Positions 56,840-61,000 of a DNA stretch of 64,000 nucleotides are shown piece after piece (the first letter of the stretch is position 1; the number at the start of each line of letters is the position of its first letter). The stretch lies in the NCBI GenBank assembly GCA_963205435.1, contig CAUJIV010000099.1:1-64000 (forward strand), in the 5' to 3' direction. Source of the DNA: Pseudomonadota bacterium. Its GTDB lineage: Bacteria; Pseudomonadota; Gammaproteobacteria; Burkholderiales; Rhodocyclaceae. The notes under the pieces are model-generated. The model worked only from the letters and a program-made list of their open reading frames with translations. It was not told where the DNA came from and did not search any database. The translations under genes and the position numbers were made by a program.

Positions 56840-58408
56840 TCAGCCGCGGATCAGGGCCAGCACGTTCTGCGGCAGCGCATTGGCCTGCGCCAGCATTGCC
56901 ACGCCGGCCTGCTGCAGGATCTGGGCGCGAGTCAGGTTGGCGGTTTCGGAGGCGAAATCGGTATCCTGGATGCGTGAGCGCGACGCCGTCAGGTTTTCCG
57001 CAGTGGCCGCCAGATTCGAGATGACCGAATCGAAGCGGTTCTGGATCGAGCCGAAGGTTGCCCGCAGATTATTGACGGAGGTCAGCGCCGCGTCGACTCG
57101 GGTGATGGCAACGTTGGCATTCGCCACCGAAGTGACCGAAACCGAGTTGAGGGCCGAGGCGCCAAGAGCCATCGAGCTGTTGTCGGCATAGCCAATATAC
57201 GCTTCATGGTTGCCGGACAGCGTAATGGCGTCGGTAGAGGTCAGACGGATGGTGCCGCCGAAAGTGTTCGCCACTGCCACGCCGCTGGCCATTGTGATGG
57301 CCGTTTTTGCATCGTTGCTCGAGTTATTCTCTCCTGCGGTCGTATCACGGAGGCCGACGCCAATTACGCCGCCGGTGGCATCCGCATCGGTTGCCGTCTG
57401 GGATACGGCAATGTTACGGCCATCCGACGCGTTCAAGGTCAGCTTGCCGCTGCTGAACGTGGCCGTCACTCCGGTGGCGGCGGAGTTGGCGTTGATCGCA
57501 TTGGCCATCTCCGCGCCGGTGATGGTGACTTGCGAAACACCGTTATAGATATTGGTGCCGTTAATGTTGAGGGTATAGGTATCCGTAGCTTGAGTGCTGG
57601 CCACTGACGTATAGTCGAATGTCACCGTGGTATCGGCAGAGGCGGTCAGGTTGGGCACGCTGGCGTTGTTGATCGCCAGAACCTTCGAGTAGGCACTGCT
57701 TGCCGTGCGGCCGGCATTGCCAGCACCTGAGCTATTATCGGCAGAAGCGCCGATGTTGACGGCGGAGTTGGAGCCGACCGTGATAGTGAGGTCGCCGGAT
57801 GCCAGGGCGTTACCGACGTCCACGCCGGTGCCCTGCTGGCCGAGGGCTTTGCTGGTGCTGTAGGCGGTAGAGCCGTCCACATAATCGGCAGTCTTGCCGA
57901 TGGCCGTATAACGCATGCTGGTGGAAAGGCCTACGGAAATGGTTTCGCCGACGTTGGCGCCAACCTGGAAAGTCGCCGTGCCAAAGTTTCCGTCAAGCAG
58001 CTTCAGTCCGTTGAACGAGGTCTGCACGGCAACGCGATCAATCTCGGACAGGCGCTGCTGAACCTCGAGATCCAGCGCGGCGCGGTCGGAAGCGCTGTTG
58101 GTGGCGTTGGCCGCCTGCACCGCCAGTTCGCGGATGCGCTGCAGGTTCTGGGTGATTTCGCCCAGCGCGCCTTCGCCGGTCTGCGCCAGGGAAATGCCGT
58201 CGCTTGCGTTTCTCGTGGCCTGATTCAGGCCGCGGATCTGGGTCGTCATTCGCTCCGAAATGCCCAGGCCTGCTGCATCGTCCTTGGCGCTGTTGATGCG
58301 CAGACCGGTGGACAGGCGCTGCAAGGCGGTGGCGAGGGAACTTTGCGAAGTGTTGAGGTTGCGCTGCGCATTCAGTGACGCGATGTTGGTGTTGATGATC
58401 TGAGGCAT
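56840..58408 (-). CDS. fliC: Flagellin
   Basis: [64 protein letters not shown]...; C-term [38 protein letters not shown]. Confidence 0.98.
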
Positions 58409-58497
58409 GATCTGTCTCCAAAGTAGTGAGAGGGTTCTGACAGCCTCACGCCCCCTGACTCCCGATCCGGTTGGCGTTGATGTTGCCGTCAGGAGCA

Positions 58498-58524
58498 CTA
58501 TCGGTAAGAAATGGAAAAACTTTA
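58498..58524 (-). promoter_or_regulatory. Sigma28 (FliA) promoter of fliC
   Basis: Minus TAAAGTTT-N11-ACCGATAG. Confidence 0.88.
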
Positions 58525-58595
58525 GGAAAACTCATCGGTACCGGCCTCTAGTTCGTTGATAGATTGGAGGTTTGTGTTTGGCAGCAAAAAATCCT

Positions 58596-58622
58596 TCAAG
58601 TTTTCTCAACCCGTGCCGATAA
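58596..58622 (+). promoter_or_regulatory. Sigma28 (FliA) promoter, divergent from fliC
   Basis: TCAAGTTT-N11-GCCGATAA. Confidence 0.82.
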
Positions 58623-58628
58623 TGCCTG

Positions 58629-58710
58629 TACACGCGGAATTACGTGCAGGGCTGAGAAGTTCTCCTGACTCCCAGGAAAGCCGCCGGCAACCCCGGCGGT
58701 TTTTCTTTTG
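58629..58710 (+). ncRNA. Candidate sigma28-dependent small RNA (~80 nt)
   Basis: Between a FliA-type promoter (58596-58622) and a strong rho-independent terminator (58682-58710); contains short hairpins GAGAAGTTCTC and TCCTGACTCCCAGGA. Confidence 0.5.
58682..58710 (+). terminator. Rho-independent terminator
   Basis: CCGCCGG-caacc-CCGGCGG followed by TTTTTCTTTT. Confidence 0.88.
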
Positions 58711-58898
58711 CAAAAGTCAGTCACGGCAGAACAGCGCCGATGAAAAAGACGGTTTGCCGACGCACCGCTCCCTTGGAAACCACCTGGCAGCCTGTCTTCA
58801 AGGCACGGGTGACAGCTGAGCGGGAAGTCCGGCGGAAAACCCGGAAAAGATGCCATTTCGCATGCGAAACAGTTAGACTGTCGCACAAGAGGTACTTC

Positions 58899-59141
58899 AT
58901 GATCGGGAATATTGAAAACCTGATCCTGGAACATCTAAAGACGATCCAGGCCGAGCAGGCCGCCGCACGCGAGCGTGACGCGGAGGTCCTAGCGCGCCTG
59001 TCGAGCATCGAAAACGGGCTCGCGCGGATCTCGCGCGACGAGGCCTTGACTTATACCGAATTGGTTCAGGATCGGCATGTCGTCGACAAGCTCAAGGAAC
59101 GTATTGAGCGCATCGAGCGGCGCTTGGAGTTGAGCCAATAA
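58899..59141 (+). CDS. Small coiled-coil hypothetical protein
   Basis: MIGNIENLILEHLKTIQAEQAAARERDAEVLARLSSIENGLARISRDEALTYTELVQDRHVVDKLKERIERIERRLELSQ. Confidence 0.75.
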   Translation: MIGNIENLILEHLKTIQAEQAAARERDAEVLARLSSIENGLARISRDEALTYTELVQDRHVVDKLKERIERIERRLELSQ

Positions 59142-59188
59142 AATCCTGAGCCTGCAAAAGTCAGTCGCCGCGGTACGGCGCGCGAATC

Positions 59189-61000
59189 TCAATCGACCGC
59201 GACGACGCGGTTCTTGCCACTCTGCTTGGCCTGGTACATCGCCGCGTCGGCGCGGGCGATGGCTTCCTTTCTTTCCTCGCCTTCGCGGAAGGCGGTGACG
59301 CCGGCGCTGAAGGTGATCAGCAGCTTCTCGTTCCTGTGCAGGAAGAAGCGTTTCGTCAGCTCGCGCTGCAGCCGGGTCAGCGCCGCGACGGCGTCGGGCA
59401 GCGCCGTCTCCGGCAGCAGGATGATGAACTCCTCGCCGCCGTAGCGCGCCAGCGTGTCCTGCGGCCGCAGCGTCTCGCGGATCACCCGCGCCAGGTGCAC
59501 CAGGGCGGCGTCGCCGGCCTGGTGGCCCAGCGTGTCGTTGAGCCGCTTGAAGTTGTCCACGTCGAGCAGGGCGAGGCAGAGCGGCGCCTGGCGTCGCTGC
59601 GCGCGCTTCATTTCGCGCTCCAGCGTCTCGTCGAGGCCCTTGCGGTTGAGGGCGCCGGTGAGCTGGTCGTGGCGCACCATGACGCTGGTCTCGGTCAGCT
59701 CGTTCTGCAGGCGGACGATCTCCCGCTCGGCCTCGGCCACGCGCGCCCGCATCCCCTCGAGCTCATCGCGCGAGCGCTGGGCGCCGAGCTGGATGACGCG
59801 CGTCTCGCGCATCAGCTCGGCGACGACGTCGTTCAGCTCGGCGAGGTCGCCGGCGGCGCCGATGCGGCCGGCCAGCCGCTCGATCTTGCCGTGGTAGTCG
59901 CCGCTCGCCTCGGCGAAGCCCGCCAGGTGGTCGACGAAGCCGGCCAGCATCGCCTTCAGCCGCTCCTTGGCCTCGTTCAGGTTGTTCTTCAGCATGCTCT
60001 GCCGGTAGATCACCTCGCGCAGGCGCTGGCCGACGTCGTCGAGGCTGCGGATGTTGAGCGGCTGGCCGAAGATGTCGAGCACCATGCCGATCTGGCCCTG
60101 CACCCACTTGTCGTCCTCGACCAGCTCGCTGATGTTCTCGATCACCAGCTGCAGCAGCTTCTGCAGCGCCGCCTTCAGCTCGGCCTGGTCCTCGGCGACG
60201 AAGTTGAGCCGGTAGCTGAACTGCTTGAGCCGCTTCGCTAGCAGGGCGAAGCTGGCGCCGTCGCCGGCCTGGCGCAGCCCGGCCGCCAGCGCGGCCGCCT
60301 CGTCGGCCAGCTCCGGCGTGTCGATCAGCAGCATCGCCACCGAGCTCTCCACCAGCTGGGCGATCAGCTCGCGCAGCTCGGCGCCCGGCAGGCGCAGCGG
60401 CGCGGCCTCGCCGGCCGCTCGCCCGGACGCCTGCTGCGGTGGCGCTTCGGCCGGCGTCGCGGCGCCGTCTTTGCTTGCAGCGGCGCCCTGTCCGCTTGCC
60501 GCGGCGAGTGCCGTCTCTTCGCCGGCGCCGCTCTTTGACCATGAGCCCAGAAGGGATTGCAGGCGCTCGAACAGGTTTTCCGGGTCGCTGCCGGCCGAGG
60601 CGAGAACGTGATCGACGGCTTCGCGCTTGGCCGCCGGCGTCAGTCCGGCCTGGCGGCGCTCCATCTGCGCCAGCAGCTCGCCGATCAGCCCGCCCCAGGC
60701 CGGCGGCTCCGCCTCGAGGGTCTTCAGGGGCGCCGCCAGCGCCTCGGCGAGACGCGACCAGTCCTGCGCAGCGACGGCGGCCTCGATCTGCTGCACCAGC
60801 CGGCCTTGCGCCGGCAGGGCGCGCGGCAGGCGGCCGGCGAGGGCCTTGAGGGCGCGCTCGGGAAAGACCTCGCCCGCCGTCGTGCCGGCGATCTCGTGGT
60901 AGAGGGTGCGGTAGTTCTCCGGCGTCGGCGGGATGCGCCGGCTGGCCAGCCGGCGCAGGGCTTCGCGCGCGATCTCGGAGGGTTGGGTCAGGTCGGCCAT
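59189..61000 (-). CDS. GGDEF diguanylate cyclase
   Basis: RHDQLTGALNRKGLDETLEREMKRAQRRQAPLCLALLDVDNFKRLNDTLGHQAGDAAL...YGGEEFIILLPE. Confidence 0.94.
   Translation of the reverse strand: MADLTQPSEIAREALRRLASRRIPPTPENYRTLYHEIAGTTAGEVFPERALKALAGRLPRALPAQGRLVQQIEAAVAAQDWSRLAEALAAPLKTLEAEPPAWGGLIGELLAQMERRQAGLTPAAKREAVDHVLASAGSDPENLFERLQSLLGSWSKSGAGEETALAAASGQGAAASKDGAATPAEAPPQQASGRAAGEAAPLRLPGAELRELIAQLVESSVAMLLIDTPELADEAAALAAGLRQAGDGASFALLAKRLKQFSYRLNFVAEDQAELKAALQKLLQLVIENISELVEDDKWVQGQIGMVLDIFGQPLNIRSLDDVGQRLREVIYRQSMLKNNLNEAKERLKAMLAGFVDHLAGFAEASGDYHGKIERLAGRIGAAGDLAELNDVVAELMRETRVIQLGAQRSRDELEGMRARVAEAEREIVRLQNELTETSVMVRHDQLTGALNRKGLDETLEREMKRAQRRQAPLCLALLDVDNFKRLNDTLGHQAGDAALVHLARVIRETLRPQDTLARYGGEEFIILLPETALPDAVAALTRLQRELTKRFFLHRNEKLLITFSAGVTAFREGEERKEAIARADAAMYQAKQSGKNRVVAVD

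Follow-up and report, generated by a model that had tools for sequence, protein, structure and literature searches.

A putative FliA-controlled antisense small RNA divergent to fliC, with complementarity to the flagellin mRNA leader in Candidatus Desulfobacillus

In a sewage-type betaproteobacterium, a tiny RNA gene adjoins the flagellin gene fliC. What could such an RNA do there, and is its complementarity to the leader of the neighbouring mRNA more than an accident of base composition? We approached these questions in a window of 64,000 nt, the whole stretch of DNA that was analysed, and in related genomes of the same genus, which was recognised through a motif scan across named genomes as Candidatus Desulfobacillus (Rhodocyclaceae) and includes the complete genome AP021857.1. 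The reading that we favour, and consider rather likely although well short of secure, is that the locus encodes a FliA-controlled, partial antisense sRNA of about 80 nt on the fliC leader, which represses flagellin synthesis within an incoherent feed-forward loop.

The start of the sRNA was placed by promoter spacing (+/-2 nt) and its end by the T-run of the terminator, which gives the following elements:

58629..58709, plus strand: sRNA gene of about 80 nt, divergent to fliC
58596..58622, plus strand: predicted FliA (sigma-28)-type promoter of the sRNA, TCAAGTTT - 11 nt - GCCGATAA, from the sequence
58631..58646, plus strand: 5' hairpin of the sRNA, CACG(C)...(A/G)CGUG (RNAalifold, 10 sequences)
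58662..58673, plus strand: pairing segment CUCCUGACUCCC of the sRNA, 96.7% mean pairwise identity, complementary to leader positions 58452-58463
58674..58709, plus strand: predicted intrinsic terminator of the sRNA, a GC-rich hairpin (14-bp stem in the fold) followed by a U-run

An initial annotation of this DNA had linked the sRNA to FliA, and the upstream region indeed matches a predicted sigma-28 promoter. Each of the 10 genus genomes with fliC has it, at 80% mean pairwise identity, versus 59.7% for the DNA between the two promoters. About 50 nt 3' of the promoter, a GC-rich stem is followed by a T-run, and positions 58625-58709 fold with a minimum free energy of -34.1 kcal/mol (z -3.0). 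The predicted terminator keeps its form but varies in sequence among species, with C-G/U-A exchanges at one pair. Rfam scans of the window and four relatives returned no family above its gathering score for the sRNA; a sub-threshold RsmY match lies on the other strand in one relative only, and the GGA motifs by which a CsrA/RsmA-sequestering RNA would be recognised are not conserved in the sRNA alignment. An hfq gene is present in 15 of the 16 genus genomes.

Just past the sRNA lies a gene for a GGDEF diguanylate cyclase (59189-61000, minus strand), and several relatives have sequence similar to this gene region directly 3' of the sRNA. An additional segment separates the two in the window and L002; in the window it holds a small unassigned ORF (58740-59141). 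GCAAAAGTCAGTC or a close variant occurs at 58710-58722 and 59155-59167 of the window and also in L002, L004, L010 and L012. Repeats of this type sit near gene ends, including on an unrelated contig of G006, and GCAAAAGTCAGTC looks like a small dispersed repeat.

On the opposite strand, the flagellin gene is preceded by its own promoter of the same type and by a leader that contains the sequence complementary to the sRNA:

56840..58408, minus strand: fliC, flagellin, 522 aa (Pfam Flagellin_N 6e-46, Flagellin_C 3.7e-26)
58498..58524, minus strand: predicted FliA-type promoter of fliC, TAAAGTTT - 11 nt - ACCGATAG, from the sequence and conserved in the genus
58409..58491, minus strand: fliC leader with a conserved fold in which helix P1 encloses helix P2 (10 distinct sequences)
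58452..58463, minus strand: sRNA target GGGAGUCAGGGG in the leader (CCCCTGACTCCC on the plus strand, GGGAGTCAGGGG on the fliC-sense strand)
58416..58419, minus strand: Shine-Dalgarno sequence GGAG of fliC (GCAAGGAG in 7 relatives)

The sRNA segment corresponds to CTCCTGACTCCC in the DNA (58662-58673, plus strand) and forms 12 contiguous pairs with the leader (58452-58463), including one G-U, exactly as the initial annotation had placed them; U58661 adds a second G-U with the leader G at 58451 and extends the duplex to 13 pairs. With fliC starting at 58408, the target lies at positions -55 to -44 relative to the start codon. In favour of a fortuitous match between an unrelated sRNA and leader, the leader is GC-rich and itself conserved. 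Among 1,000 dinucleotide-shuffled leaders, however, 3 held a run at least as long as the observed one in the case of the window, and 1-17 did so in the case of eight relatives. The exception is L010 (from G006), where the match is bulged and the target GGGAGUCUAGGGG retains a 7+5 pairing.

Rankings against natural leaders give a similar picture. In AP021857.1, fliC is first of 1,751 predicted leaders by duplex energy of the 25-nt seed region (-33.2 kcal/mol, against a mean of -17.5 and an sd of 3.4), in a ranking that covered 2.4 of 3.1 Mb. When the 13-nt block was compared with a background of 1,750 predicted leaders from one relative, the cognate leader beat all of them in nine of the ten species, with z between -5.0 and -5.4; for L010, 6 background leaders rank ahead (z -3.9). 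By whole-sRNA duplexes with 120-nt leaders in G002, fliC is only 32nd, because long GC-rich duplexes dominate such a list. A matrix of all sRNA and leader combinations favours the cognates, with 80 of 20,000 permutations as good. Co-folding of both RNAs predicts the 12-mer duplex with a probability of 0.96-1.0 and, once folding costs are deducted, a binding energy between -14 and -27 kcal/mol. Furthermore, 27 fliC upstream regions from outside the genus (including that of G019) contain no shared repeat longer than 10 nt. The 12-mer complementarity is more than chance; with the shuffle, ranking and conservation tests all against it, coincidence is a highly improbable account of this locus.

Conservation, on which the initial annotation had staked its proposal, holds in the genus wherever fliC is present: the pairing recurs in all 10 such genomes. 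A covariance model (R1) built from ten relatives detects the sRNA in 10 of the 16 genus genomes with 89-109 bits, and the sRNA gene is absent from all six genomes that lack fliC, in which no FliC-like match was found apart from a distant one in G013. Among 199 genomes of the family, none outside the genus has a match above 35 bits; matches of up to 35 bits in 43 further family genomes were rejected as homologues, as their scores lie in the range expected of GC-rich terminators. Within the intergenic alignment, no segments are better conserved than the two 12-mers, that of the sRNA and that of the leader, each with a mean pairwise identity of 96.7%, compared with 59.7% between the promoters and 64.2% in the sRNA linker. 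Eight relatives carry CCCCUGACUCCC at the sRNA pairing segment, 10 of the 12 leader target columns are invariant in the 10 genomes, and the C-to-U changes that the window and L009 show in the seed of the sRNA preserve the pairing as G-U. In G019, which belongs to another genus, the homologous leader is kept and the target has drifted to GGGGUCAGGAGG; neither an sRNA nor a compensating sRNA was detected there, in a single comparison with a genome that is 84% complete. Part of the target conservation is accounted for by leader structure.

There are two other explanations for the shared 12-mer. In the first, the 12-mer would be bound as DNA in both transcription units, by a repressor or for looping, with no pairing of RNA. 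The two copies are direct repeats whose spacing is 208-211 bp in nine genomes and 220 bp in the remaining one, near 20 or 21 helical turns, but this spacing rests on few independent indels. Each copy also lies inside its own predicted transcript, the sRNA unit has a promoter, a hairpin and a terminator, the seed changes are C-to-U opposite G, and two further complementary blocks, described below, lengthen the match as RNA. We therefore regard a DNA site as very improbable. The second is that the abundant fliC leader serves as a sponge for an sRNA whose main targets are other mRNAs. The sRNA loop of L004, L007 and L010 contains the anti-Shine-Dalgarno sequence UCCUU, by which it could bind further mRNAs. 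Nevertheless, no leader of a relative has a better seed energy than that of fliC, the 10-mer GGGAGTCAGG has no site in the window's own genome beyond the sRNA and the fliC leader, and the sRNA is missing wherever fliC is missing, which leaves a sponge very improbable.

The complementarity reaches further in most of the genus, a feature that the initial annotation had missed. In L004-L010, seven of the ten species, a further two blocks of the sRNA are complementary to leader sequence in co-linear antiparallel order, one of them over the Shine-Dalgarno sequence. In block 1, the loop and 3' arm of the sRNA 5' hairpin (e.g., CUCCUUGCG in L007) match the Shine-Dalgarno region GCAAGGAG; the other extra block joins AGGGUU... 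of the sRNA with ...AACCCU of the leader. The duplex of blocks 1 and 2 was matched by 0-10 of 2,000 shuffled leaders in L004-L010 and by 814-1,123 of 2,000 in L001-L003. Blocks 1-3 together reach -48 to -57 kcal/mol in L004-L010 and are stronger than the entire background of 1,750 leaders in 6 of the 7 species (z -5.1 to -5.7). Because 1-8% of natural GC-rich leaders match blocks 1 and 2 alone, these two blocks are supporting evidence rather than proof.

The window's own subclade is without the Shine-Dalgarno block; the 5' hairpin loop of the window sRNA is GGAAUU and does not pair with the Shine-Dalgarno region of fliC. Where the species divide into those that have the block and those that do not, sRNA and leader have both changed, and this division may reflect a single evolutionary event. 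As G019 also has GCAAGGAG, the block appears to have been lost in the window's subclade, and a fliC gene tree intended to date the loss of block 1 gave no resolution of the deeper forks of the main group. It is conceivable, although we hold it to be doubtful, that the sRNA originated by partial copying of the leader's antisense strand and has co-evolved with the leader as a three-block antisense regulator. In the window's subclade, sRNA and mRNA would then have lost the Shine-Dalgarno block jointly, and masking of the ribosome site would have given way to purely upstream control.

By promoter spacing, the -10 element of fliC, which ends at 58498, places the transcript start near 58490. P1 joins UGACGGC (58485-58491) with GCUGUCA (58438-58444) (CUGACGGC/GCUGUCAG). 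Over 10 distinct leaders, 98.7% of cells are paired in P1 and 94.4% in P2, with one C-G/U-A exchange in which both sides changed; the support for this fold is not above the shuffle control. The initial annotation had instead pointed to CTCCTGAC near the 5' end as an arm that is able to pair with the target and could be displaced by the sRNA. This sequence is present (58488-58495, minus strand), but only 4 of 10 relatives have it, and with a start near 58490 its CTCC part (58492-58495) would lie at or before the transcript start and is probably not transcribed. The corresponding helix, 88.8% paired across 10 distinct leaders and partly through G-U, was rejected as the leader fold: it is weaker than P1, uses the same 5' arm, is varied and probably lies outside the transcript. 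Displacement of this arm is poorly supported as a mechanism.

Leaders from two other genera, L131 (G019) and L289 (G085), share the ends TGACGGCGACATCA.CGCC ... GCTGTCA, and the start and end of the G085 leader resemble those of the genus leader (UGACGGC...GCUGUCA), which suggests an older leader RNA element that is independent of the sRNA. Directly 5' of the fliC -35 element, L006-L010 have a long inverted repeat, e.g., TAGGGCGGAACCTTGCGATTCCGCCCTAAAGTTTTCC in L006. In these five relatives it overlaps the first base(s) of the -35 element, whereas the window has a degenerate form of it at about 58523-58548; it is possibly a repressor site or a terminator of read-through.

The sRNA could pair with the leader and yet activate or stabilise the fliC mRNA, by remodelling P1/P2 or by protecting the 5' end, which would amount to positive feed-forward under FliA. 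In the window and in L002-L003, the free leader is predicted to fold the ribosome site into a stem that costs 7.6-8.6 kcal/mol to open, and blocking the target raises the calculated accessibility of the start codon from 0.62 to 0.87, from 0.12 to 0.43 and from 0.02 to 0.19, respectively. MotR, moreover, raises flagellin in E. coli (PMC10578931). In L004-L010, however, the accessibility effect is inconsistent and the sRNA also covers the Shine-Dalgarno sequence. Overall, the predicted opening energy of the ribosome site shifts by -1.6 to +1.7 kcal/mol upon blocking, with no consistent sign, so that no mechanism follows from blocking itself. We consider activation unlikely, but in the window species it is the main rival.

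Repression by a FliA-controlled antisense sRNA remains our preferred reading. The sequence itself offers the predicted promoter and terminator, the conservation, the co-occurrence with fliC and the specific complementarity. As the most conserved stretch of the sRNA complements the most conserved stretch of the leader, the sRNA very probably tunes the amount of flagellin. FliA would transcribe the sRNA, and Hfq-assisted pairing would begin at the invariant CCCCUGACUCCC/GGGAGUCAGGGG block. In most species, the duplex could then zip via AGGGUU/AACCCU to the anti-Shine-Dalgarno loop over GCAAGGAG, which would cover the Shine-Dalgarno sequence and block translation initiation of fliC; the duplex may also be cleaved. 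In the window's subclade, which lacks the Shine-Dalgarno block, pairing would act from -55 to -44, by way of the leader fold, a ribosome standby site or cleavage by an RNase. Counting against our reading, a repressive effect does not follow directly from the predictions for the window species: its sRNA stops short of the Shine-Dalgarno sequence, and blocking of the 12-mer has no consistent effect on the accessibility of the ribosome site. The estimated cost of opening the leader target, 8-12 kcal/mol, also counts against it. FliA-type promoters on both RNAs lead us to expect an incoherent feed-forward loop, which would cap or time flagellin synthesis. If true, this is a compact natural circuit of one sigma factor, one mRNA and one antagonist RNA that are chromosomally adjacent. 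Its ten naturally occurring versions, which differ in whether they have the Shine-Dalgarno block, would make the mode of action testable by variant swaps.

In the literature examined, dedicated sRNA control of flagellin is described only for enterobacteria and Campylobacter, and in none of these cases is the sRNA an antisense of the flagellin leader that is encoded divergently from it; our literature search, whose coverage was incomplete, found no description of the present RNA. In E. coli, MotR and FliX are sigma-28-dependent sRNAs that have fliC among their targets and tune the flagellin level (PMC10578931). Control by sigma-28 and fliC as target, both predicted for the window sRNA, are common to the two systems, but MotR and FliX derive from UTRs and pair inside coding sequences, whereas the window sRNA is free-standing, divergent, equipped with its own predicted promoter and complementary to a 5' leader. 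The Rfam scans revealed no sequence kinship with MotR or FliX, and a direct lookup in E. coli genomes gave no match. In Campylobacter, the 47-nt, FliA-dependent sRNA CJnc170/FlmR moderates flagella and was suggested to act on the RpoN-dependent flgE, flaB and flgP (PMC11187230); it differs from the window sRNA in phylum, in sequence and, as described (PMC11187230), in locus.

Closer to the present phylogenetic setting, S17 and bdhR1 are betaproteobacterial sRNAs that pair at ribosome sites (PMC11722255; RF02278), and an S17-like RNA was reported in Ca. D. denitrificans (PMC11722255). The betaproteobacterial origin and the pairing at the ribosome site are points of likeness; RF02278 is absent from the cmscan matches of the window at E up to 10 and of four relatives at E up to 1. 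The arrangement of the locus resembles that of IstR-1/tisB and OrzO/zorO, where divergent sRNAs regulate toxin mRNAs (PMC4147584): the window sRNA, too, is divergent, lies beside its target and is complementary to the 5' UTR upstream of the ribosome site. Different from these pairs, its target is flagellin and not a small membrane toxin, both partners have the same type of sigma-factor promoter, and in most relatives the pairing reaches the Shine-Dalgarno sequence. In the window species, repression would have to proceed through an upstream block, as it does for IstR-1 on tisB (PMC4147584).
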